DNA of 22,906 bases, taken from the NCBI GenBank assembly GCA_027064085.1, contig JAMOQH010000006.1:1-22906 (forward strand), in the 5' to 3' direction. Shown one piece after another: positions 6,506 to 20,584 of this stretch (its first letter is position 1; each line of letters begins with the position of its first letter). This stretch comes from a bacterium (GTDB lineage Bacteria; UBP6; JAFGXH01). Below the pieces are notes generated by a model. It was not told the DNA's origin and did no database searches. It worked only from the letters and a program-made list of their open reading frames with translations. Both the position numbers and the translations under genes were made by a program.

Positions 6506-7282
6506 TTATTTATTTTTAATGTCCCAAAGTTTTGCCATAACTCTTTCAAGCTCTGGGGCTAGTAGTTTAGGGTCATTAGTTTTATTTACATTATTATCAA
6601 ATTCAACATAAGGTACTTTGAATTCTTTATCAGTGCTGTCTTTATGAAATTTTGGAGTAATATGCAAATATTCAGGATCTTTAGCAATAAACTCTTTCCA
6701 ATCTGATTCTTTATACATCATTTCAATTTTCTTGTTTTCTAAAGCATGTTCTAAAACAGAATCTGGCTTATCTGGATTAAATCTTTTTTCATTTTTCTTT
6801 AATGATTCTTCCCAAGTTGTATCTATATAAACGACTACACCATTTTCTAATACTCTATCTGAAAGATAAGAATATCCTTCTTTCCAACCACCATGCTCAG
6901 AACCTCTTGCAAATTCAATAATAAGAGTTTTCTTTTCATGAAAATCGGGGTCATCTCTTAGTATTCTTTCATATTGATCCATTAGTTTTCTAATTAACCA
7001 ATTCCAAAAATACTTTTTCTTAAAAGTATAACCGGGTAGTGTTTCACCTTGATATGTAAATTCTGTATTTGAAACAGTTCTTGGCTCACCAAATTGTTCA
7101 TGTAAATCATCATCTTCAAATCTTTCCCAAAGAATAATGAAATCATCTATTTCAATAAACTCACCAATATGGAATTTTTCAATTCTTTCTTTTAGTGGTG
7201 TCTTTTTTAAAAAATCAATTACTTCAGATTTACCAGCCGCAGGACGACCATTTAATAAAACTACATCAAACGTGTTTTTCAT
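6506..7282 (-). CDS. P-loop NTPase / kinase-like protein of unknown family
   Basis: The N-terminus of this 258-residue protein is a clear Walker A: VVLLNGRPAAGKSE, with G12, G17, K18 and S19. A strand VVYIDTT near 149-155 and LIIEFARG near 125-132 are compatible with a nucleoside- or nucleotide-kinase-like fold. The rest is charged and rich in aromatic residues. It has no signal peptide or membrane segment. I do not recognise the family, and a small-molecule kinase is only an inference. It sits directly upstream of the sugar-phosphate antiporter, which would fit phosphorylation or handling of an imported metabolite. GGAG precedes ATG by 8 nt. Confidence 0.7.
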   Translation of the reverse strand: MKNTFDVVLLNGRPAAGKSEVIDFLKKTPLKERIEKFHIGEFIEIDDFIILWERFEDDDLHEQFGEPRTVSNTEFTYQGETLPGYTFKKKYFWNWLIRKLMDQYERILRDDPDFHEKKTLIIEFARGSEHGGWKEGYSYLSDRVLENGVVVYIDTTWEESLKKNEKRFNPDKPDSVLEHALENKKIEMMYKESDWKEFIAKDPEYLHITPKFHKDSTDKEFKVPYVEFDNNVNKTNDPKLLAPELERVMAKLWDIKNK

Positions 7283-8018: not shown

Positions 8019-8083
8019 ATATTTTTTTAACATATTAAATTACTAAATTTCATGATATTGATTAGGATATTCTTTGGAGAACA

Positions 8084-8707
8084 TTATTTTTCATCTTTTG
8101 CAGTATCTTTAACTAAATCTTCTTCGTATCCATGAATCATTTCTTTAAATAATGCTAATGGAGTATGTCCAGTTGTTGCTAAGTACATGTGTCCAAGAAT
8201 AAATAAAACAAAGAATGCTCCTACTAAAATATGAATAAGCAATGCAGTATGAATGCTTGCTCCACCAAACATAAGTATGAAACCTGTAATCATTTGAGCA
8301 GGCATAGCTAAAAACATAACACCATCATAAGCAAGTTTTTGCATAGGATTCATTCTGTTTTCTGGCCCTACATGGTAAGGGTGTTTATTAGTAAAATAAA
8401 TATCAGCAATATAAAACTTAGCTTGTTTAAATATTCCCATAGGATACTCATCTGCTTTTTTAGGTAAGTATAAATGTATTCTTTTGGTAATAAGCATATA
8501 TAATACCCATACTATAAAATTAATAGTAACTATATATCCAAATAAATTATGCATTTTATAGGCCGTATTCATACTAAATATAGAGTTTGGCCAATGCATG
8601 CTTATACCTGAAAGAGCTAACATAACCATAGAAAATGCTTGTATCCAATGCCATAATCTTTCCATTAATGTAAACATTACTACATTTGTATTTTTTTGTG
8701 TTTTCAT
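8084..8707 (-). CDS. Membrane cytochrome b subunit of molybdoenzyme complex 1 (FdnI/PhsC type)
   Basis: The 207-residue protein has four predicted membrane helices (about 22-40, 55-74, 127-148 and 155-178), as in the formate dehydrogenase gamma / thiosulfate reductase cytochrome b family. Candidate haem b ligands are H20 (ERLWHW), H53 (YKMHN), H153 or H159, and H173 (ILGHMY). It would exchange electrons between the quinone pool and the tetrahaem and Fe-S subunits on the periplasmic side. ATG follows GGGGTAATT and starts 2 nt after the tetrahaem stop. It is the last gene of operon 1 and is identical in sequence to the copy at 14684-15307. The short tail after H181 is acidic and probably cytoplasmic. 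Confidence 0.88.
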   Translation of the reverse strand: MKTQKNTNVVMFTLMERLWHWIQAFSMVMLALSGISMHWPNSIFSMNTAYKMHNLFGYIVTINFIVWVLYMLITKRIHLYLPKKADEYPMGIFKQAKFYIADIYFTNKHPYHVGPENRMNPMQKLAYDGVMFLAMPAQMITGFILMFGGASIHTALLIHILVGAFFVLFILGHMYLATTGHTPLALFKEMIHGYEEDLVKDTAKDEK

Positions 8708-8709
8708 AA

Positions 8710-10275
8710 TTACCCCTTACTATTTCTTTTAGATGCAAACATTATTCTTAATAATCCATGACCTAAAATACCTAAAATCGTTGCTATTAGTAATATTATT
8801 GCATATTGGTCAAATTCTTTATTAGATGTATCAGTAATCATCATAAAATGTTCTTTTGGTAATTTTTCTTTATTAAGAACTATTTTACCATTTACAACTT
8901 TAGCTAATTTTGTATCTTTAACTCCTGGAATAATAACATCAATATCATCTGTAGCCACATAAGATAATATTTCACTATCTTTGTATAACTCACTCTTTGC
9001 TTTACTACTATGACAACTTTCACAGTTTTTAGTAGCCATTTCTTTAGGCATTACATTGTGTTCTAATGCAACAGGAAAAGAAATTAGTTTTAACTTTGGG
9101 TCTTTAATGCCAGCTTTCTTTAATAATTTAATAGCAATATCTTTTTTAGTTTTATTATCAAAGTTTGCTTCAATTACAGATAATTTACCATCTTTATTAC
9201 CATCAAAGGCTTTAGCTATTTCGGAGTTTAGCTTATTATTAACATAAAAAGCTCTTTTTAATACTTTGGCATCAATAAAATTTTTACCATTTTTCCAAAC
9301 TAAAAAACTTACCATATTAGCAGGTTTAATTTTAATGTTCTTATCTGTTTTACCTTTATACCATAAGTGATTTGGAGTAAAACCAACTATACTTTTACCT
9401 TTTTTTCCTAAATAAGTAATAAATGGTTCGTCGTTATTGTTAACTAAAGCATAGTTAAAACTTTTAGCTGTAAACATTTCCCTTTTATTAATATGACAGG
9501 TTTCACAACTGATTTTATCCATGTGATTACTTGTTGCAGGAAGCCATGCTGCATGTTTTGCAATATCGTCTTTATGACATTCAATACATGTTTTAACTTT
9601 GAAGTTTTCTACATTATTATGTTTCGTTCCTAAATAATTATCTATGCTTCCTTTATCAATAAGAATATTTAATCTACCTATATAATTAGTAGCTTTAGCT
9701 GTTTTATTAGGCTCAGAAATGTGACATTTCGCACAACCAACATTTTTACTTGAATGTATATCAAAAACATAGTTCTTAGACTTTTTATCTTTAATATTCA
9801 TATGGCTTTCTGATACTTTTAACTTACTAAATATCTGTCCACCTTTTAATATAGTAGAATTATACTTAGAATCTACAAATGGTAAAATACGCTCTGGCTT
9901 TACTAACTCATTATGCTTAACATCTACTCCTTCAAGCTTAACAAAATTCACTTTCTTATGAAACATTCCCCCTTCATGTTTAGTAGCATGACTATGTGTT
10001 TCTTCTTTTTTAACTTCTTTTTTAATTTCTTTTCTAGAAACTTTTTTTACTTCTTCCTTTTTAGGAACTTCCTTTACTACTTCTTTTGTCTTTATTTTAG
10101 ACTTAACTTTAGTATCAGATTTTGTTTCAACTTTTTTCAAAGCAGGTTGAACTTTTTTACCTGCTACTTTAAGATTAGTTGTTTTTAATGTTTTAATATT
10201 TTTTACAACTTTACTAGGAGTTTGATTCCCATAAACAAATACTGATAAAAACATAAATAATACTATAAATCTCAT
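8710..10275 (-). CDS. Tetrahaem cytochrome c with EF-hand-like loop and C-terminal anchor, complex 1
   Basis: The 521-residue protein starts with a signal peptide (1-16) and a long Lys/Glu-rich linker (about 41-92). It then has four CXXCH c-haem sites, at 181-185, 230-234, 257-261 and 418-422. Between the third and fourth lies DGNKDGKLSVIE (358-369), a perfect 12-residue EF-hand calcium loop pattern. A hydrophobic helix at about 491-512 anchors the C-terminus in the inner membrane, with a basic tail inside. It is likely to relay electrons in the periplasm between cytochrome b and the ferredoxin-like subunit. Scattered histidines can supply distal ligands. It is spaced 9 nt from the Fe-S gene and 2 nt from cytochrome b. 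The duplicate at 15310-16875 is identical. Confidence 0.9.
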   Translation of the reverse strand: MRFIVLFMFLSVFVYGNQTPSKVVKNIKTLKTTNLKVAGKKVQPALKKVETKSDTKVKSKIKTKEVVKEVPKKEEVKKVSRKEIKKEVKKEETHSHATKHEGGMFHKKVNFVKLEGVDVKHNELVKPERILPFVDSKYNSTILKGGQIFSKLKVSESHMNIKDKKSKNYVFDIHSSKNVGCAKCHISEPNKTAKATNYIGRLNILIDKGSIDNYLGTKHNNVENFKVKTCIECHKDDIAKHAAWLPATSNHMDKISCETCHINKREMFTAKSFNYALVNNNDEPFITYLGKKGKSIVGFTPNHLWYKGKTDKNIKIKPANMVSFLVWKNGKNFIDAKVLKRAFYVNNKLNSEIAKAFDGNKDGKLSVIEANFDNKTKKDIAIKLLKKAGIKDPKLKLISFPVALEHNVMPKEMATKNCESCHSSKAKSELYKDSEILSYVATDDIDVIIPGVKDTKLAKVVNGKIVLNKEKLPKEHFMMITDTSNKEFDQYAIILLIATILGILGHGLLRIMFASKRNSKG

Positions 10276-10284
10276 ATCTTACTC

Positions 10285-10920
10285 CTATATTTCCCAATGT
10301 TTGTCAGGTAAACCAATGTAAAAAACTTTAGGATTCATTCCAAATTCTGGATGAAGATGTTTAGCTTTTTTATCTTGTACTAATTTAGTAAATTTATTGC
10401 CTTTATCATCTAAATCAAAGAAATTAATCGCATCTCCAATACAGGTAGCTGCACAAGCTGGCTCTAATCCTTCTGCTAATCTATGTTGACAAAAATCACA
10501 TTTATCTACATGGGGTACCATATGTCTAGCATATTCTTTAGTAAATTTCTCTTCTTCCATTTGAATATCTTCTTCACTATAAAAATACCTAGCATCATAA
10601 GGACAGGCATCCATACAAGCCATACAACCTATACAAGCTTCATAATCAACTAAAACTGTTCCATTATTATCTACATAAGTTGCTGCTGTTGGACATACCA
10701 TCTCACAAGCTGGTTCTTCACAATGCTGACAACGGTTTTGTGCAAAGAATCTCATTGTTTTGGGAAAATTACCACTTTCTTGGCTATCTATCTTTAATCT
10801 CCACTTTCTATCACTTTGATCTGCCCAAAAAGGAGATTGATTTTCTACACTACAGGCTGCCATACAGCTCTTGCAACCAAAACATTTGGTTAAATCTATT
10901 ACCATTCCATATCTTGCCAT
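10285..10920 (-). CDS. Four-cluster [4Fe-4S] electron-transfer subunit of complex 1 (PsrB/DmsB type)
   Basis: The 211-residue protein has all 16 cysteines of the four-cluster molybdoenzyme beta subunit: C13/16/19/23, C64/67/72/76, C96/99/102/106 and C141/144/156/160. It has no signal peptide, as expected for a subunit exported by hitchhiking on the Tat signal of the catalytic partner. It also has no C-terminal membrane helix, so attachment must come from the tetrahaem and cytochrome b proteins. It passes electrons between the molybdenum subunit and the haem proteins. ATG lies 9 nt after the A1 stop with GGAG in front. It is identical to the copy at 16885-17520. Confidence 0.93.
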   Translation of the reverse strand: MARYGMVIDLTKCFGCKSCMAACSVENQSPFWADQSDRKWRLKIDSQESGNFPKTMRFFAQNRCQHCEEPACEMVCPTAATYVDNNGTVLVDYEACIGCMACMDACPYDARYFYSEEDIQMEEEKFTKEYARHMVPHVDKCDFCQHRLAEGLEPACAATCIGDAINFFDLDDKGNKFTKLVQDKKAKHLHPEFGMNPKVFYIGLPDKHWEI

Positions 10921-10929
10921 TTTTATCTC

Positions 10930-13900
10930 CTAATTAACTTTTTTTACTTTAACGGTAAATTCTTGTGAACGGAAAGCTGCTACTAATCTTTCTGTTTGGT
11001 CAGGAACAATTTCATTCAAAGCAGGACCATTTTTATAAGCAACATGTAATAAAGGATTTTCTACTCCAAATGATGATGGAAAGAAAATAGTATCTTTTCT
11101 AACTAAATCAGTTAACTGAACATGTCCAACCACTTTTTGTTTACTTACAGTATTAGAAAGCTCTATTTTATCGCCAGTTTTTAAGCCTAGCTTAACTCCT
11201 TTTTCTTTAGATAACCAAATATGATGAATAGAATCAATATCTTGTTTGATTAAAGCTGCTAAAATTGGGTTGTTACTATTTGTTGATGCATGAGAAATTA
11301 TAGGTGTTTTACCAAAAATAAAATAAAACTCATTATCTGCAAGTTTTTTATTCATATCATTATCAACATGCTCAAACATAGGGTTCCATTCTGGCTTAAT
11401 ACCTGCAGAATCTGAAATCACATTGAATAATTCACTGAAAATTTCTAACCTTCCAGAGAGACTATTTGGTCTTAATTTTCTTGGAATATTAAATTCTTCT
11501 AATATTTTATCTTTAGGATGTTCAAGTACAACTCCCATTTCTTTCATTTCTTCTTCAAATTGCTTTCCTGTCATTCCATGTGGAGCAGCCTGTTCAAAAG
11601 ATAGAATCCTATAAGCTTCATTGATAGGATTTTTTTCTCCTTTAGCTTTAAGCTCATGGTAAATCTTCATTACTTTCATTGCACTTAATGATTTACCACC
11701 AGGTGTTTTAGTTCCGGTCATCATTTGAATAGCACCAAAGAAATGCATATTACTGTCGATTATAGACATAGGGTTTTGCATCATTGCAGCAACATTTTTA
11801 GGCATCATAGGCATCATTTGTTTTTCCATTTTAGCCATCATTTTAGGTGGTATTACTTTCATTAATGCAGGCATCATAACAGGCATTAATTTTGCAATTT
11901 GTTCTTTGGACATTGCCCCCATCATTTTAGGAGCCATTTTCATTAATAAATTATCAGGGATTTTAGCCATCATACCAGGCATCATTGATTTCATCATTTT
12001 AGGATTCATCATTCCCATCATACCTTTCATTGCACTTGGGCTCATTCCTGGCATAACTGCTTTCATTATGTCTGGAGTCATCATTCCTTTAAATTTATTC
12101 ATTAATTTATCATCTGCAATATCTAATAGTGCAGGTGTCATATCTTTCATCATTTGAGGATTCATTAATGGTAATAATTGTTTCATCATTCCATTAAACA
12201 TTCCTGAGCTCATCTTAGGAAGCATTGCTGCCATCATATCAGGCATCATCATCGCTTTAAATCCATCTCGCATCATATAAGCGAGTTTAGTCATATGTGG
12301 TTTCATATGTGGTTTATGTGTCCATACCTCAGCAACTTTAAATAAAATATCTGGAGTTTCTCTACTGTCATATAATGGGTCTATAACTTTAAATCTAGTT
12401 GTTAAAGCACCATCATGTGAAGGACCATTTCCATAAACAAAAGGTTCATTTCTTTCTAAATATGTTGAGTTTGGTAAAATTACATCAGCATAAGGTGTTG
12501 TATCAGAAGGTAAAATATCTACAGCAACAACCAGTTTTAAATTAGGATTTGTTAACATGCTAACCCATTTAGCTTTTGTAAAATAATGCCTGATAGGGTT
12601 AGAACCATTAAAATAAATGGCTTTCATATTATAATCAACAGTTTTACCATCCATTCTTTTATATTTTAATGTTCCCTCAATTGCTTCTTTTAATCCTTTA
12701 TCTGAAAATGCAGGTAATGGAGAGGCTAAGTCATGAGTTTTTTTATTGTTCATTAAATTTCCTTCATGAACAAATGCAGCTGCAGGCATTCCTGTTACCC
12801 AAGAATCGGGAAGTTTAAAAATATCTCTTGCTGCGACATAAAAAGGTAGACCTGTTAAGTCACCAAAAGATAAATCTTGATTAAACATATTGTAGTTAAA
12901 AGGCTTTCCGCCAGATTTTTTTAGTAAAGCATTAGTCCATGAATGAGCTTCTGCTGAAAATATCCAACCACCTTTTTTATCTATTCCACCAATTAATGTT
13001 TGAATTGCGGTTTGTAGTCTTCTTGTTTGTAGTATATTTCTATATCTACTACCCATCCAACCTGGATCTATAGCCGCTCCTTTTATTGTTGCTAATTTAT
13101 GTGATATTTCATCTATTTTACTAGCTGGAATATCAGTCAACTTAGATGCCCATTTTGATGTAAAATCTTTTAAAGTAGGTACAATTAATTGGTAAGAGGT
13201 AAATAGTTTTGTGCTTTTAGAAGTCTTAAAACCTTTTGGAGCTTTAAAATCTTTAGGTAAATCAGCTACTGTTACATTAAAGCTTTCATGCATAGCTGGT
13301 TTTACTTTATCGCCTAATGCATCCACATAATTTGTATTATTTTTAGTGCTTATTCTTTTTACCTTTTTAGTATTTAAATCATATACAAAATACGCTTGAG
13401 GGAATTTATTTCCTCTTATATCTTCTCCTAACTCAACAACAGGAATAGCTCTACCATCTTTATTCTTATATGATAAAAATGGTAAATTAGTATATTGAGT
13501 AACAAATTCTTTATCATAGGATCTTTTTTTCATTATGTTGCTAAATATAGCTAAAAATAATGCTTGGTCATTACCCGGCTTAATAGGTAACCATTCGGTA
13601 GCTTTTGATGCTAATTCTGATTTTCTTGGATCTATAACAACTATTTCTGCACCTTTTTCTATTGCTTTTTTAAGTCTTACTGCCCTTGAAGTTGACATGG
13701 CTGCGATACCTGCATTAACCATAGGAAGAACTGCATATTTAACATTTTCCCAATCAACTAATATTTCATCATGTATATTAAAACTACCAATAACTGCATC
13801 ATTACCAACATGACCAGCACCAACACAATGTTGGAAAGGAGAGGCTAGGATATTAGGAACTTGTGTTGCAATTGCAAATCCTAAAGACATAGGCATATAA

Positions 13901-14364
13901 AAAACACAAGGAGCCCAGCCTCCAGCCATAGTAAATTCCCAAGGTTGAACTTTATGCTCTTCTAATTTATCTCCAATATACTTAATTGCCTCGTCCCATG
14001 TGGCCTTTTTAAATTTCCATTCGCCTCTTTTAGAGCCTTTAATTCTAATCAATGGTGTTTTAATTCTATCTGGATCATAAGTTTGGAATAATCCAGCTTG
14101 ACCTCTAGCACACATTTTTCCTCTGTTTAAATCAGAGTTTTCATTTCCGTCAATTTTTAACATTCTTCTTTTTTTACCTTCTCCCTGAACTTTTACTTTT
14201 ATACTACATACTGTAGAACAAAAATTACAAACAGAAGGAATGTATTCACTTTTTTCTTTTTTACCATGCTTATTTTCAGCTAAAACTGAAGCTGGTTTTA
14301 AAAAGCTTAAACTAGCACCTAGTAGTGCTGATGTTTTCAAAAAAGCTCTTCTTGTAAATTTCAT
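10930..14364 (-). CDS. Molybdopterin oxidoreductase catalytic subunit A1 with methionine-rich insertion
   Basis: This 1,144-residue member of the DMSO-reductase (Mo-bisPGD) family has a Tat signal (TRRAFLK, residues 4-10), a [4Fe-4S] site at C46/C49/C53/C85 and a likely molybdenum-ligand cysteine at C180 in QHCVGAGHVG. The C-terminal region (about 990-1144) forms the usual pterin-binding beta-barrel. Overall it resembles polysulfide/thiosulfate/tetrathionate-type enzymes, but the substrate cannot be assigned. Residues about 687-866 are a methionine-rich insertion that is missing from paralogue A2 and lies between the PDILF segment (671-675) and the conserved C-terminal part. The ribosome binding site GGAGTTTCT is followed by ATG at 14364. 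It is the first gene of operon 1. The last 13 codons fall in the perfectly duplicated block. Confidence 0.92.
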   Translation of the reverse strand: MKFTRRAFLKTSALLGASLSFLKPASVLAENKHGKKEKSEYIPSVCNFCSTVCSIKVKVQGEGKKRRMLKIDGNENSDLNRGKMCARGQAGLFQTYDPDRIKTPLIRIKGSKRGEWKFKKATWDEAIKYIGDKLEEHKVQPWEFTMAGGWAPCVFYMPMSLGFAIATQVPNILASPFQHCVGAGHVGNDAVIGSFNIHDEILVDWENVKYAVLPMVNAGIAAMSTSRAVRLKKAIEKGAEIVVIDPRKSELASKATEWLPIKPGNDQALFLAIFSNIMKKRSYDKEFVTQYTNLPFLSYKNKDGRAIPVVELGEDIRGNKFPQAYFVYDLNTKKVKRISTKNNTNYVDALGDKVKPAMHESFNVTVADLPKDFKAPKGFKTSKSTKLFTSYQLIVPTLKDFTSKWASKLTDIPASKIDEISHKLATIKGAAIDPGWMGSRYRNILQTRRLQTAIQTLIGGIDKKGGWIFSAEAHSWTNALLKKSGGKPFNYNMFNQDLSFGDLTGLPFYVAARDIFKLPDSWVTGMPAAAFVHEGNLMNNKKTHDLASPLPAFSDKGLKEAIEGTLKYKRMDGKTVDYNMKAIYFNGSNPIRHYFTKAKWVSMLTNPNLKLVVAVDILPSDTTPYADVILPNSTYLERNEPFVYGNGPSHDGALTTRFKVIDPLYDSRETPDILFKVAEVWTHKPHMKPHMTKLAYMMRDGFKAMMMPDMMAAMLPKMSSGMFNGMMKQLLPLMNPQMMKDMTPALLDIADDKLMNKFKGMMTPDIMKAVMPGMSPSAMKGMMGMMNPKMMKSMMPGMMAKIPDNLLMKMAPKMMGAMSKEQIAKLMPVMMPALMKVIPPKMMAKMEKQMMPMMPKNVAAMMQNPMSIIDSNMHFFGAIQMMTGTKTPGGKSLSAMKVMKIYHELKAKGEKNPINEAYRILSFEQAAPHGMTGKQFEEEMKEMGVVLEHPKDKILEEFNIPRKLRPNSLSGRLEIFSELFNVISDSAGIKPEWNPMFEHVDNDMNKKLADNEFYFIFGKTPIISHASTNSNNPILAALIKQDIDSIHHIWLSKEKGVKLGLKTGDKIELSNTVSKQKVVGHVQLTDLVRKDTIFFPSSFGVENPLLHVAYKNGPALNEIVPDQTERLVAAFRSQEFTVKVKKVN
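11767..12306 (-). other. Coding segment for the methionine-rich insertion of A1
   Basis: It encodes residues about 687-866 of A1. I count about 54 methionines in 180 residues, with no cysteine and few aromatics, arranged in loose units such as MTPDIMKAVMPGM, MNPKMMKSMMPGMM, APKMMGAM and PPKMMAKM. The pattern is M/P/K-rich and probably helical, with proline breaks every 8-14 residues. A2 runs directly from the PDILF segment into the following conserved part without it. By family analogy it could bind Cu(I), scavenge oxidants or act as a docking surface. None of these is shown by the sequence. Confidence 0.9.
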
Positions 14365-14610: not shown

Positions 14611-14626
14611 AAAAAACTAGTTTTTT
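14611..14626. other. 16-bp perfect palindrome at the edge of repeat copy 2
   Basis: AAAAAACTAGTTTTTT is self-complementary and spans the left boundary of the duplicated block (first shared base 14622). On the minus strand it follows the operon 2 cytochrome b stop by about 58 nt and ends in a T-run, so it could also act as a weak terminator for operon 2. Confidence 0.6.
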
Positions 14627-14683
14627 TTAACATATTAAATTACTAAATTTCATGATATTGATTAGGATATTCTTTGGAGAACA

Positions 14684-15307
14684 TTATTTTTCATCTTTTG
14701 CAGTATCTTTAACTAAATCTTCTTCGTATCCATGAATCATTTCTTTAAATAATGCTAATGGAGTATGTCCAGTTGTTGCTAAGTACATGTGTCCAAGAAT
14801 AAATAAAACAAAGAATGCTCCTACTAAAATATGAATAAGCAATGCAGTATGAATGCTTGCTCCACCAAACATAAGTATGAAACCTGTAATCATTTGAGCA
14901 GGCATAGCTAAAAACATAACACCATCATAAGCAAGTTTTTGCATAGGATTCATTCTGTTTTCTGGCCCTACATGGTAAGGGTGTTTATTAGTAAAATAAA
15001 TATCAGCAATATAAAACTTAGCTTGTTTAAATATTCCCATAGGATACTCATCTGCTTTTTTAGGTAAGTATAAATGTATTCTTTTGGTAATAAGCATATA
15101 TAATACCCATACTATAAAATTAATAGTAACTATATATCCAAATAAATTATGCATTTTATAGGCCGTATTCATACTAAATATAGAGTTTGGCCAATGCATG
15201 CTTATACCTGAAAGAGCTAACATAACCATAGAAAATGCTTGTATCCAATGCCATAATCTTTCCATTAATGTAAACATTACTACATTTGTATTTTTTTGTG
15301 TTTTCAT
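14684..15307 (-). CDS. Membrane cytochrome b subunit of molybdoenzyme complex 2
   Basis: The 207-residue product is identical to the cytochrome b at 8084-8707: four membrane helices and the same candidate haem ligands H20, H53, H153/H159 and H173. In operon 2 it would connect the quinone pool to the complex containing catalytic subunit A2. It follows the tetrahaem gene by 2 nt. Because both copies have the same protein, the two complexes can exchange this subunit freely. The 376 bp between its stop and the first A1 codons include the shared 3' flank and the operon 1 regulatory region. Confidence 0.88.
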   Translation of the reverse strand: MKTQKNTNVVMFTLMERLWHWIQAFSMVMLALSGISMHWPNSIFSMNTAYKMHNLFGYIVTINFIVWVLYMLITKRIHLYLPKKADEYPMGIFKQAKFYIADIYFTNKHPYHVGPENRMNPMQKLAYDGVMFLAMPAQMITGFILMFGGASIHTALLIHILVGAFFVLFILGHMYLATTGHTPLALFKEMIHGYEEDLVKDTAKDEK

Positions 15308-15309
15308 AA

Positions 15310-16875
15310 TTACCCCTTACTATTTCTTTTAGATGCAAACATTATTCTTAATAATCCATGACCTAAAATACCTAAAATCGTTGCTATTAGTAATATTATT
15401 GCATATTGGTCAAATTCTTTATTAGATGTATCAGTAATCATCATAAAATGTTCTTTTGGTAATTTTTCTTTATTAAGAACTATTTTACCATTTACAACTT
15501 TAGCTAATTTTGTATCTTTAACTCCTGGAATAATAACATCAATATCATCTGTAGCCACATAAGATAATATTTCACTATCTTTGTATAACTCACTCTTTGC
15601 TTTACTACTATGACAACTTTCACAGTTTTTAGTAGCCATTTCTTTAGGCATTACATTGTGTTCTAATGCAACAGGAAAAGAAATTAGTTTTAACTTTGGG
15701 TCTTTAATGCCAGCTTTCTTTAATAATTTAATAGCAATATCTTTTTTAGTTTTATTATCAAAGTTTGCTTCAATTACAGATAATTTACCATCTTTATTAC
15801 CATCAAAGGCTTTAGCTATTTCGGAGTTTAGCTTATTATTAACATAAAAAGCTCTTTTTAATACTTTGGCATCAATAAAATTTTTACCATTTTTCCAAAC
15901 TAAAAAACTTACCATATTAGCAGGTTTAATTTTAATGTTCTTATCTGTTTTACCTTTATACCATAAGTGATTTGGAGTAAAACCAACTATACTTTTACCT
16001 TTTTTTCCTAAATAAGTAATAAATGGTTCGTCGTTATTGTTAACTAAAGCATAGTTAAAACTTTTAGCTGTAAACATTTCCCTTTTATTAATATGACAGG
16101 TTTCACAACTGATTTTATCCATGTGATTACTTGTTGCAGGAAGCCATGCTGCATGTTTTGCAATATCGTCTTTATGACATTCAATACATGTTTTAACTTT
16201 GAAGTTTTCTACATTATTATGTTTCGTTCCTAAATAATTATCTATGCTTCCTTTATCAATAAGAATATTTAATCTACCTATATAATTAGTAGCTTTAGCT
16301 GTTTTATTAGGCTCAGAAATGTGACATTTCGCACAACCAACATTTTTACTTGAATGTATATCAAAAACATAGTTCTTAGACTTTTTATCTTTAATATTCA
16401 TATGGCTTTCTGATACTTTTAACTTACTAAATATCTGTCCACCTTTTAATATAGTAGAATTATACTTAGAATCTACAAATGGTAAAATACGCTCTGGCTT
16501 TACTAACTCATTATGCTTAACATCTACTCCTTCAAGCTTAACAAAATTCACTTTCTTATGAAACATTCCCCCTTCATGTTTAGTAGCATGACTATGTGTT
16601 TCTTCTTTTTTAACTTCTTTTTTAATTTCTTTTCTAGAAACTTTTTTTACTTCTTCCTTTTTAGGAACTTCCTTTACTACTTCTTTTGTCTTTATTTTAG
16701 ACTTAACTTTAGTATCAGATTTTGTTTCAACTTTTTTCAAAGCAGGTTGAACTTTTTTACCTGCTACTTTAAGATTAGTTGTTTTTAATGTTTTAATATT
16801 TTTTACAACTTTACTAGGAGTTTGATTCCCATAAACAAATACTGATAAAAACATAAATAATACTATAAATCTCAT
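15310..16875 (-). CDS. Tetrahaem cytochrome c with EF-hand-like loop, complex 2
   Basis: The 521-residue product is identical to 8710-10275: signal peptide, Lys/Glu-rich linker, CXXCH at 181-185, 230-234, 257-261 and 418-422, EF-hand-like loop at 358-369 and a C-terminal membrane helix. The absence of even silent differences between the copies means they have been homogenised or duplicated very recently, in contrast to the adjacent A genes. It lies 9 nt after the Fe-S gene and 2 nt before cytochrome b in operon 2. Its likely role is periplasmic electron relay to or from A2/B2. Confidence 0.9.
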   Translation of the reverse strand: MRFIVLFMFLSVFVYGNQTPSKVVKNIKTLKTTNLKVAGKKVQPALKKVETKSDTKVKSKIKTKEVVKEVPKKEEVKKVSRKEIKKEVKKEETHSHATKHEGGMFHKKVNFVKLEGVDVKHNELVKPERILPFVDSKYNSTILKGGQIFSKLKVSESHMNIKDKKSKNYVFDIHSSKNVGCAKCHISEPNKTAKATNYIGRLNILIDKGSIDNYLGTKHNNVENFKVKTCIECHKDDIAKHAAWLPATSNHMDKISCETCHINKREMFTAKSFNYALVNNNDEPFITYLGKKGKSIVGFTPNHLWYKGKTDKNIKIKPANMVSFLVWKNGKNFIDAKVLKRAFYVNNKLNSEIAKAFDGNKDGKLSVIEANFDNKTKKDIAIKLLKKAGIKDPKLKLISFPVALEHNVMPKEMATKNCESCHSSKAKSELYKDSEILSYVATDDIDVIIPGVKDTKLAKVVNGKIVLNKEKLPKEHFMMITDTSNKEFDQYAIILLIATILGILGHGLLRIMFASKRNSKG

Positions 16876-16884
16876 ATCTTACTC

Positions 16885-17520
16885 CTATATTTCCCAATGT
16901 TTGTCAGGTAAACCAATGTAAAAAACTTTAGGATTCATTCCAAATTCTGGATGAAGATGTTTAGCTTTTTTATCTTGTACTAATTTAGTAAATTTATTGC
17001 CTTTATCATCTAAATCAAAGAAATTAATCGCATCTCCAATACAGGTAGCTGCACAAGCTGGCTCTAATCCTTCTGCTAATCTATGTTGACAAAAATCACA
17101 TTTATCTACATGGGGTACCATATGTCTAGCATATTCTTTAGTAAATTTCTCTTCTTCCATTTGAATATCTTCTTCACTATAAAAATACCTAGCATCATAA
17201 GGACAGGCATCCATACAAGCCATACAACCTATACAAGCTTCATAATCAACTAAAACTGTTCCATTATTATCTACATAAGTTGCTGCTGTTGGACATACCA
17301 TCTCACAAGCTGGTTCTTCACAATGCTGACAACGGTTTTGTGCAAAGAATCTCATTGTTTTGGGAAAATTACCACTTTCTTGGCTATCTATCTTTAATCT
17401 CCACTTTCTATCACTTTGATCTGCCCAAAAAGGAGATTGATTTTCTACACTACAGGCTGCCATACAGCTCTTGCAACCAAAACATTTGGTTAAATCTATT
17501 ACCATTCCATATCTTGCCAT
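16885..17520 (-). CDS. Four-cluster [4Fe-4S] electron-transfer subunit of complex 2
   Basis: The 211-residue product is identical to 10285-10920, with the same 16 cluster cysteines in four motifs and no signal peptide. It must dock onto A2 here and onto A1 in operon 1, so the contact surface on the two diverged catalytic subunits should be conserved. It starts 9 nt after the A2 stop with GGAG in front. The periplasmic location depends on co-export with the Tat signal of A2. Confidence 0.93.
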   Translation of the reverse strand: MARYGMVIDLTKCFGCKSCMAACSVENQSPFWADQSDRKWRLKIDSQESGNFPKTMRFFAQNRCQHCEEPACEMVCPTAATYVDNNGTVLVDYEACIGCMACMDACPYDARYFYSEEDIQMEEEKFTKEYARHMVPHVDKCDFCQHRLAEGLEPACAATCIGDAINFFDLDDKGNKFTKLVQDKKAKHLHPEFGMNPKVFYIGLPDKHWEI

Positions 17521-17529
17521 TTTTATCTC

Positions 17530-20382
17530 CTAATTAACTTTTTTTACTTTAACGGTAAATTCTTGTGAACGATAAGCTGCCGTTGCATTATCATAAGTAT
17601 CTGGAATTAATTTTCCTATTCCTGGACCATTTTTATAACTTAATTTTAGTTCAGGGCTAAAACCACCAAGTGAGCTATTCATAAATACTGTATCCTCTCT
17701 TATTAACTCCGTAACTTCAACTTCTGCAGTTTCTTTATATCCTCTTCCAACTGTTTCTATTTCTATTTTATCTCCTGTTTTTAATCCTATTTTATTTGCT
17801 CTTTTCGTATTCATCCATACTCTTTTAAAACTTTTTTCATCTTGTTTGATTAAAGCAGATAAGATTGGGTTTGCACTTGATGAACCTGCATGTCCAACTA
17901 ATGCAATTTTACCATAAACAAAGAAAAATTCATCATCTTTTATTTTAAAGTTTGGAGTAGCTTTTTTATCATCTTCTTTTCTGAAAGATGGCCCTAAATA
18001 TTTAAAATTAGGTGTGTGGTTTAAATCCTTAACTTTTTGTGAAACTTTTGCCAAAGAAAAAGACCATGGTTCAAGTCTTCCGGTAGGAGTGCCTAGAGGC
18101 ATTTTTCTTGGCATGTTTTCATGTTCCATAAGATGTTCTTTTCCTTCTAGAAAAACTATTCCATCTTTAAAAAATCTTTCTTTTAATTCTTCAGGAGTCA
18201 TTTTGGCTTTTTTAGCCTTTCTTTTAAAATCCATTGCAAATACTGCATCCATGTAAGGAGTATTACTTCCCTTTTCCTTAAATTCATTAATTTTTTCAGA
18301 AAATTTTTCTGGGTCTAGTTTAGTCATTCCTGCAAAAGTTTTTACATGTTTTTTAATTGTTCCCATTGCTTCACTCATACCAAATAAAATATCAGGTAGG
18401 GATTTTGTGTTATATAATGGTTTAATTGCAGGAAATCTTGTTGCATAGGCCGCATCTAGAGATGGACCGTTCATAAATACAAAAGCTTCATTTCTTTCCA
18501 GATATGATGAATCAGGTAATATTACATCTGAATAAAGTGCAGACTCTGAAGGCATTATCTCTGCAGAAATAACTAAATCTAGATTCTTTAAACTGTTTAT
18601 AACTTTTTCTCTTGGATAAAAGTTATTTGCATAGTTGGAAGCATTAAAGTACATCGCTCTGATTTTATAAGGTTTTCCTTTCCATTTTAATTTTCCATCT
18701 ATTGCATCATACAGACCATAATCAGTGAACATTGGTCTTGCAGGTGCATTTCCCGTAGCTTTTTTATCCATTTTGGCTTTGGCATAGGTAAACCCTGGAT
18801 AGCCATGGTCATATCTTTTATCGTTTCCCCATACTTTAGGATGACCCAGCCAGCTCATTATTCCAAATTTTTCATAAGGTTTAGGTTTTCTGAATCCATT
18901 TTCTTTAACATCTTTTTTATAACTAAGTAAAGATTTCATACTATGGCGTGCATGAGCTGATTCTATCCAGCCACCTTTTTTATCTATTCCTCCAATAAGA
19001 GTTTGAACTGTAGCCATAGCTCTTCTTGTTTGAACCATATTTCTGTATCGACCTCCACTCCAGCCAATATCAACTGCAGCAGGTTTTATTGTTCCCATTT
19101 TATGATATACTTCTTTAATATCTTCTAGTTTTAAATCTGTTTCTTTAGCAACCCACTCAGGAGTATATGAAGATACTTGTTTTGATACAATTTGAAATAT
19201 TGTTTCAATTTTTATATCAGAAGGTTTTTTATTTTTTTGTAATTTAAAATTCTCCTGAAAATCTTTTGGCATATCAGCTAATGTTAAATTTTTTACTTCC
19301 AAAGAAGGTTTAATTGTATTTCCATTTATATCTTTTAAGTTGCTATTGGTAAAACCTTTAACTCTTACAATTTTTTTACTAAGTTCATCGTAAACAAAAA
19401 CATGTTTTATTACTTTTTTTACAACTTTTTCTCCCTTCATTAGTTTTTTCTTTTCGAGTAAAGGCTTTACTTTACCTTTTTTATTTAAAGCAAGAAATGG
19501 GAAATCTGTATGAGCTGTATTAAATTCTTTATCATATTGTTTGTTTTTAATTAGACTATTTATTAAGCCTAGAAAAAAAGCAAAATCTGTACCGGGTTTT
19601 ATTGGAAGCCATTTTTTTGCTTTTGATGCTGTTTCTGAATGTCTTGGGTCTAGAACAACAAATTCACTACCATTTTCTAAACCTTTTTTAAATCTTACTG
19701 CTCTTGATGTTGACATTCCTGCAATCCCACCATTAGTAGATGAAAAGATACCATATTTAACATTTTCCCAATCAACTAAAACTTCATCATGTATGTTAAA
19801 ATTACCTATTACTGAATCAACTCCTACATGTCCAGTCATAACACAATGTTGAATTGGAGCAATAATCACATTTGGGATTTTATTTGCATGAAAAAAAGAA
19901 AATGAGAATGGTTTGTAGAATACACATGATATCCATGAACAAATAGGAGCCCATTCCCAAGGTTGAATGTTTTTTTCTTTAGCAGTATCAGCAATATATT
20001 TAAAAGCTTCCTCCCATGAAGCTTTTTTAAATTTCCATTCGCCTCTTTTAGATCCTTTAATTCTTATTAGTGGCGTTTTAATTCTATTAGGGTCATAGGT
20101 TTGAAACATTCCTGCTTGACCTCTTGCACAAATTTTGCCTCTATTTAAATCAGAACTTGGATTTCCCTCTATTTTTGTAATTCTTTTCTTTCCATTTTTA
20201 TTTGTTTTAACATCAACTAAAATACTACATGATGTAGAACAAAAATTACATATAGAAGGAATTTTTTCTGTTTTTACCTTTTGGTTAATATTTTGGGCAT
20301 TAATTTTTTTAGGTGCTAAGAATGCTAAGCTTGTACCAAGCAGTGCTCCTGTTTTTAAAAAATCTCTTCTTGTAAATTTCAT
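17530..20382 (-). CDS. Molybdopterin oxidoreductase catalytic subunit A2
   Basis: The 950-residue Mo-bisPGD enzyme is paralogous to A1. It has a Tat signal (TRRDFLK at 4-10), [4Fe-4S] ligands C45/C48/C52/C85 and the likely Mo-ligand C180 in QHCVMTGHVG. ATG at 20382 is chosen because the same GGAGTATCT ribosome binding site and MKFTRR start occur in A1. An in-frame TTG at 20430 would add 16 residues ahead of the Tat motif and has no good ribosome binding site. A2 lacks the methionine-rich insertion. Residues lining the entry near the active site differ from A1 (for example APICSWISC against TMAGGWAPC at about 145-153), so the substrates may differ. It is the first gene of operon 2, and its C-terminus RSQEFTVKVKKVN is shared with A1. 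Confidence 0.92.
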   Translation of the reverse strand: MKFTRRDFLKTGALLGTSLAFLAPKKINAQNINQKVKTEKIPSICNFCSTSCSILVDVKTNKNGKKRITKIEGNPSSDLNRGKICARGQAGMFQTYDPNRIKTPLIRIKGSKRGEWKFKKASWEEAFKYIADTAKEKNIQPWEWAPICSWISCVFYKPFSFSFFHANKIPNVIIAPIQHCVMTGHVGVDSVIGNFNIHDEVLVDWENVKYGIFSSTNGGIAGMSTSRAVRFKKGLENGSEFVVLDPRHSETASKAKKWLPIKPGTDFAFFLGLINSLIKNKQYDKEFNTAHTDFPFLALNKKGKVKPLLEKKKLMKGEKVVKKVIKHVFVYDELSKKIVRVKGFTNSNLKDINGNTIKPSLEVKNLTLADMPKDFQENFKLQKNKKPSDIKIETIFQIVSKQVSSYTPEWVAKETDLKLEDIKEVYHKMGTIKPAAVDIGWSGGRYRNMVQTRRAMATVQTLIGGIDKKGGWIESAHARHSMKSLLSYKKDVKENGFRKPKPYEKFGIMSWLGHPKVWGNDKRYDHGYPGFTYAKAKMDKKATGNAPARPMFTDYGLYDAIDGKLKWKGKPYKIRAMYFNASNYANNFYPREKVINSLKNLDLVISAEIMPSESALYSDVILPDSSYLERNEAFVFMNGPSLDAAYATRFPAIKPLYNTKSLPDILFGMSEAMGTIKKHVKTFAGMTKLDPEKFSEKINEFKEKGSNTPYMDAVFAMDFKRKAKKAKMTPEELKERFFKDGIVFLEGKEHLMEHENMPRKMPLGTPTGRLEPWSFSLAKVSQKVKDLNHTPNFKYLGPSFRKEDDKKATPNFKIKDDEFFFVYGKIALVGHAGSSSANPILSALIKQDEKSFKRVWMNTKRANKIGLKTGDKIEIETVGRGYKETAEVEVTELIREDTVFMNSSLGGFSPELKLSYKNGPGIGKLIPDTYDNATAAYRSQEFTVKVKKVN

Positions 20383-20584
20383 AGATACTCCATAATAATA
20401 AAGTAACCCTACTAACCATTTATTTTCCAAGTTTTAAGATTTTGAAACTGTTTTAATATTCTAAACATAGTTTTCACATGTTTTTAACAAACTGATGATT
20501 CTAATGCAAAATTATAAGTTACTCTAATAGTGATATTAAGTGATTCTGTAGTTGATGTTTATAAATTTTAACAATTCTCAGTTA

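Follow-up and report, generated by a model that had tools for sequence, protein, structure and literature searches.

Why one of two sister respiratory enzymes should carry a long stretch made up of 30% methionine, and what such a stretch might do, is the question raised by this locus. The window, by which we mean the whole stretch of 22,906 nucleotides that was analysed, encodes A1 (10930-14364, minus strand), a molybdopterin oxidoreductase catalytic subunit of 1144 aa in which the methionine-rich insert lies. From its sequence, A1 is an exported molybdopterin enzyme of the periplasm, with a Tat signal, belonging to the PsrA/PhsA/SreA group, and it is a putative sulfur-compound reductase. The Fe4S4, molybdopterin and dinucleotide-binding domains (PF04879, PF00384 and PF01568) all score above their Pfam cut-offs in A1 and occur in this order. 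Among solved structures, the Thermus polysulfide reductase (2vpw) is the top sequence match (1.9e-66), and by fold (VIA) the A1 core aligns with it over 652 residues (Z 30.5, rmsd 2.6, 28% identity). Cys180 of A1, which is invariant in ten sequences, aligns with a cysteine of 2vpw in the Mo-ligand region. The score against the NCBIfam PhsA equivalog NF012032 is 302.6 bits, far below the cut-off of 694; A1 was therefore not filed as PhsA, and no substrate was assigned to it. The closest homologues in named genomes belong to Desulfurellaceae and Aquificota, and the genomes of Desulfurellaceae carry genes for the reductases of sulfur, polysulfide and thiosulfate (PMC5317093).

The operon of A1 supplies three partners, all on the minus strand: B (10285-10920), a ferredoxin-type iron-sulfur subunit resembling PsrB/TtrB/DsrO; C (8710-10275), a multihaem c-type cytochrome with four CXXCH motifs and a C-terminal membrane segment; and D (8084-8707), a cytochrome b subunit of the thiosulfate reductase/hydrogenase cytochrome b type. 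The C subunit, which occurs twice (8710-10275 and 15310-16875), has an N-terminal Lys/Val/Glu-rich stretch and an EF-hand-like motif, D-G-N-K-D-G-K-L, and matches known multihaem families only weakly. Elsewhere in the window, a 258-aa protein at 6506-7282 has a P-loop-like start and no match in Pfam or NCBIfam, and positions 24-82 consist of 8.4 perfect tandem copies of a 7-bp unit, AAGAAAC.

Translation of 11767-12306 on the minus strand, which is free of stops, confirmed the composition that a preliminary description had given for residues 687-866 of A1: 54 of the 180 residues are methionine, with 20 Pro, 23 Lys, one His and no Cys. Outside the insert, methionine accounts for 27 of 964 residues (2.8%), a normal value, and the binomial probability of the excess is about 1.5e-39; at its maximal extent, the methionine-rich segment covers residues 687-882. 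The ratio of Met to Leu is 50:11 within the insert versus 31:77 outside. The preliminary description had cast the pattern as M-M-x-P-x-M-type units; the Met/Pro pattern holds, but the unit is better given as an unbroken x-Met-Met-(Pro/Lys) tetrapeptide, repeated about 42 times without a phase slip over residues 705-872 (11749-12252, minus strand). In this array, the column information at period 4 reaches z = 10.9 against shuffles that preserve composition, with nothing above background at periods 2, 3, 5 and 6, and a log-odds scan found the register slip-free from about residue 697 to 866. Distances between methionines peak at 4, 8, 12, 16, 20, 24 and 28 with troughs between, and proline keeps the same beat. 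A unit of eight residues was considered and rejected, as it gained nothing significant once the four-residue composition was kept (z = 1.6). This strict tetrapeptide register is new beyond the earlier account of a methionine-rich segment.

Within the tetrad, position 2 is Met in 26 of 42 units and position 3 is Met in 18 of 42, while position 4 is Pro in 15 and Lys in 9. At position 2, 12 of the other 16 residues are Leu, Ile, Val or Phe, suggesting that hydrophobicity is what is kept there. The hydrophobic periodicity of the insert peaks at exactly 90 degrees per residue rather than 100, and a simple continuous α-helix or coiled coil was rejected on this ground. Instead, the register may imply an array of short amphipathic helices, a prospect that the preliminary description missed along with the register itself. 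An AlphaFold model of full-length A1 built from 20 sequences (mean pLDDT 71, pTM 0.75) has a good core and shows the insert as helical, with low confidence (pLDDT 26-75). Predicted alone, from the single sequence without an alignment, the segment had a mean pLDDT of 69 (pTM 0.51), rising to about 75-84 between residues 720 and 829, and the other four of the five AlphaFold models gave 51-58. About 13 short helices are predicted for the segment, all starting at residue numbers that are 0 mod 4, and both methionines of each tetrad would lie on one face of these helices; because the positions of the proline caps partly set the starts, this register is an agreement with the periodicity rather than independent proof of it. 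Foldseek returned no match under 0.001 for the predicted segment in the PDB and BFVD, and VIA-align gave only weak helical matches (best Z 4.3, which is meaningless for helices); no fold family is therefore claimed for the insert.

The DNA behind the array is informative about how the register has been maintained. Tandem Repeats Finder reported a single array in the insert region, 25 nt long with a 12-nt unit (12291-12315); most of the repetition has been lost from the DNA of the tetrapeptide array, yet the protein register is intact. A register without slips over decayed DNA repeats argues, as far as one sequence can, for selection on the register. It also weighs against reading the insert as an expanded repeat that has no function of its own and is tolerated in a variable surface loop, since 42 units have stayed in phase. 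Such an expansion is favoured by the low complexity of the insert, by the fact that one case is known at this position, by the variability of the linker in all relatives, and by identical codons being slightly more frequent inside the insert (0.65 versus 0.57). Yet Met stands far above Leu, and the insert is in frame with a codon use otherwise like that of the rest of the A1 gene, and we regard an expansion without function as quite improbable. The RNA structure of the insert region gave z = -2.2.

The history of the insert can be approached through A2 (17530-20430, minus strand), the sister catalytic subunit, identified from its open reading frame, alignment and tree. The start of A2 is ambiguous: translation could begin at a TTG or, 16 codons further downstream, at a better ATG (20382), where the Tat signal begins; the ATG is more likely. 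In the tree, A1 and A2 are sisters (100/99), and the next relative is a homologue from another genome (L012 of G071; 85/86). Behind A2, the genes B, C and D occur a second time (14684-17520, minus strand), contained in an exact direct repeat of 2,950 bp (8022-10971 = 14622-17571) that spans these three genes and the final 42 nt of each A gene; the insert is about 0.8 kb away from the edge of this repeat. Despite the exact repeat alongside, the identity between A1 and A2 is only about 50%, and the identical B/C/D copies might reflect either gene conversion or joining by assembly. As the preliminary description had stated, A2 has no counterpart of the insert, and the alignment found none in outgroups or in the other homologues compared, which agrees with its view of a module added to a respiratory enzyme and marks the methionine-rich module of this Mo enzyme as lineage-specific. 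Its further statement, of a direct join between the flanks in A2, was right about the absence and slightly overstated about the junction: the insert lies between the A1 regions that align with 2vpw residues 515 and 556, within a short, poorly conserved linker that is variable in every relative compared. Since A2 and the other homologues compared are without the segment, A1 probably acquired it once the A1/A2 duplication had taken place. The same comparison bears on partner docking, which had been proposed for the insert: because A1 and A2 share identical B, C and D, and A2 lacks the insert, docking to B, C or D is unlikely if the repeat is real.

Relatives of the insert are scarce in the databases searched. 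The preliminary description had called for a profile search of the segment alone, and this returned no named domain: hmmscan against Pfam at E up to 1 gave one sub-threshold unrelated family and nothing else, and NCBIfam and PHROGs gave no match. A sequence search of the PDB recovered HeliScrew4, by register, and two chance matches. Nothing was found in plasmids (tblastn) or viral contigs, where BLAST low-complexity filters may hide relatives of the insert. A protein search of 386 genomes across the domain, with thin coverage within large phyla, returned one plausible relative tail (L042/L059). Matches in two further genomes (G085 and G067) were other repeat or coiled-coil-like proteins, and one in a third (G097) overlapped stops and was dismissed as noise. 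A profile search of three other phyla yielded only small numbers of genomes (25, 1 and 3) and was uninformative.

The relative tail is found at the C-terminus of a fusion of an FAD-linked oxidase, 4Fe-4S and CCG (HdrD-type) protein (L059:5231-8323, plus strand), which has no obvious export signal; strong matches to the tail occur in 3 genomes of one genus, of 151 checked. Like the A1 insert, the tail is Met/Pro-rich (27 Met in 143 aa) with a period-4 tendency. It differs from the insert in its C-terminal position, its more aromatic and acidic composition and its looser register, and the two are no more than candidate homologues. The tail matters for the idea that a net positive amphipathic array tethers A1 to the membrane surface or to another partner. 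Flavin/HdrD-type enzymes are often peripheral to the membrane, and a methionine-rich tail at the C-terminus of one of them would suit such a tether, as would the methionine-faced helices predicted for A1 and the charge of residues 705-872 (Lys+Arg 20 versus Asp+Glu 10). However, the tail itself is not positively charged (16 positive versus 18 negative residues), and A2 does without the insert beside identical B, C and D; tethering of this kind is unlikely.

Methionine is also readily thought of as an oxidant sink in cis, in which the exported methionines would react with oxidants or with reactive sulfur or chlorine species and be recycled by a periplasmic Msr, as in the case of MrpX and YedY. 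A mechanism pairing a periplasmic Met-rich peptide with methionine sulfoxide reductase is known (PMC4623255), and an insert with 30% Met and no Cys in an enzyme with a Tat signal would fit it. Moreover, the genome encodes one MsrB-MsrA fusion (L056:1045-1977, plus strand; NF004042, 444.8 bits, above the cut-off), which has a 20-residue hydrophobic N-terminal extension beyond the family model and is probably exported or anchored. As the fusion is apparently exported, it could repair methionine sulfoxide outside the cytoplasm, much as happens in the MrpX system. An oxidant sink, however, needs no strict four-residue amphipathic register, and it does not account for the Leu, Ile and Val that stand in for Met at position 2. 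The window contains no oxidant-producing gene, the gene for the Msr fusion lies on a different contig (C144), and the protein with the other methionine-rich tail has no obvious export signal. On balance, we consider an oxidant sink somewhat unlikely.

Metal binding, which the preliminary description had raised, has been weakened. The proposal would be that clusters of methionine form a site for Cu(I), Ag(I) or a similar soft metal, as in the CueO insert, CusF and CopM, and the dense M-x-x-M and M-x-x-x-M spacings of the insert speak for it. CueO, a periplasmic redox enzyme with a methionine-rich insert (PMC9302797), is a precedent. Against this, the segment offers a single His and lacks Cys, the window has no metal genes, and neither an HMA domain (PF00403) nor a heavy-metal P-type ATPase (TIGR01525) was found in the 95%-complete genome, in a copper-context search made up of these two models, with multicopper oxidases and RND pumps outside it, and with controls matched in 13 and 14 of 14. 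In addition, a habitat with free sulfide, if correctly inferred, leaves little soluble copper. A soft-metal site is improbable.

The reading that we favour, at a probability of roughly 0.37, is that the insert provides a flexible, methionine-lined hydrophobic surface with a ligand on the substrate side of A1; the register, the enzyme family and the absence from relatives are observed and the helices are predicted, while we infer both that a ligand is bound and what it is. According to this proposal, the insert would form about eleven to thirteen short proline-capped helices, each with a methionine face, and this array would stand out from the surface at the variable linker that precedes the C-terminal cofactor-binding region. 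It might act as a flexible surface or groove, working like the Met-rich domains of the Sgt2/STI1 proteins and the SRP M domain, to which it would be unrelated. In those proteins, proline-separated Met-rich amphipathic helices form client grooves (PMC8010706). The ligand is probably on the substrate side, given that A2 shares identical electron-transfer subunits and is without the insert, and it may be the substrate of A1 itself, a soft compound of low solubility like zero-valent sulfur or a long polysulfide. The homologues in Desulfurellaceae and Aquificota, and 2vpw as the nearest structure, were counted in favour of a sulfur substrate. It is an open question how extracytoplasmic enzymes gain access to sulfur in solid or colloidal form. 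That the x-Met-Met-Pro array is a new kind of module, a thioether-lined surface that holds zero-valent sulfur at a sulfur reductase, is a more specific claim that we think improbable as it stands. Should the insert prove to serve as an oxidant sink or to bind metal, it would still be an unusually long methionine-rich insert of which the relatives compared have none. With A1 and A2 as sisters with identical partner genes, one of them with a 30%-Met module, the locus amounts to a natural controlled experiment.

Compared with known systems, A1 shares with other PsrA/PhsA/SreA subunits the core fold, the Fe4S4 and two Mo-cofactor domains, the Tat signal, the cysteine of the Mo region and a paired iron-sulfur B subunit, and differs from the close homologues examined in its methionine-rich array, which none of them has. 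A1 and A2 are accompanied by a cytochrome b and a multihaem cytochrome c, whereas the Desulfurellaceae relatives have a multi-helix anchor of the NrfD/PsrC type. The Sgt2 C-terminal domain, STI1 and SRP M resemble the insert in their short, proline-broken, Met-rich amphipathic helices; unlike them, the insert has a strict four-residue register, belongs to an exported bacterial respiratory enzyme and has no detectable sequence relation to them. STI1 and Sgt2-C form a hand of about five amphipathic helices with a groove; the helices of the insert are predicted at low to moderate confidence and have no fold match. HeliScrew4 (PDB 9zem), an octapeptide helical repeat, matches the insert weakly (E = 7e-5) and has its hydrophobic residues and prolines at the same 4n register places; yet it is Ala/Leu/Glu-rich with hardly any Met and was not recovered by the fold search, and the likeness is probably one of register, not of descent. 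MrpX of the YedYZ system, compared here by description, is likewise a periplasmic Met-rich polypeptide, and methionine sulfoxide repair is encoded in the present genome as well; the A1 insert differs in being part of an unrelated Mo enzyme, in its strict register and in having no adjacent yedYZ. Compared with the CueO insert, CusF and CopM, the A1 insert has one His, and its genome yielded no copper-transport ATPase. It is also about four times longer than these Met-rich comparators. A methionine-rich insert within a periplasmic redox enzyme is thus shared with CueO and already known, and what is unusual here is its tetrapeptide architecture.
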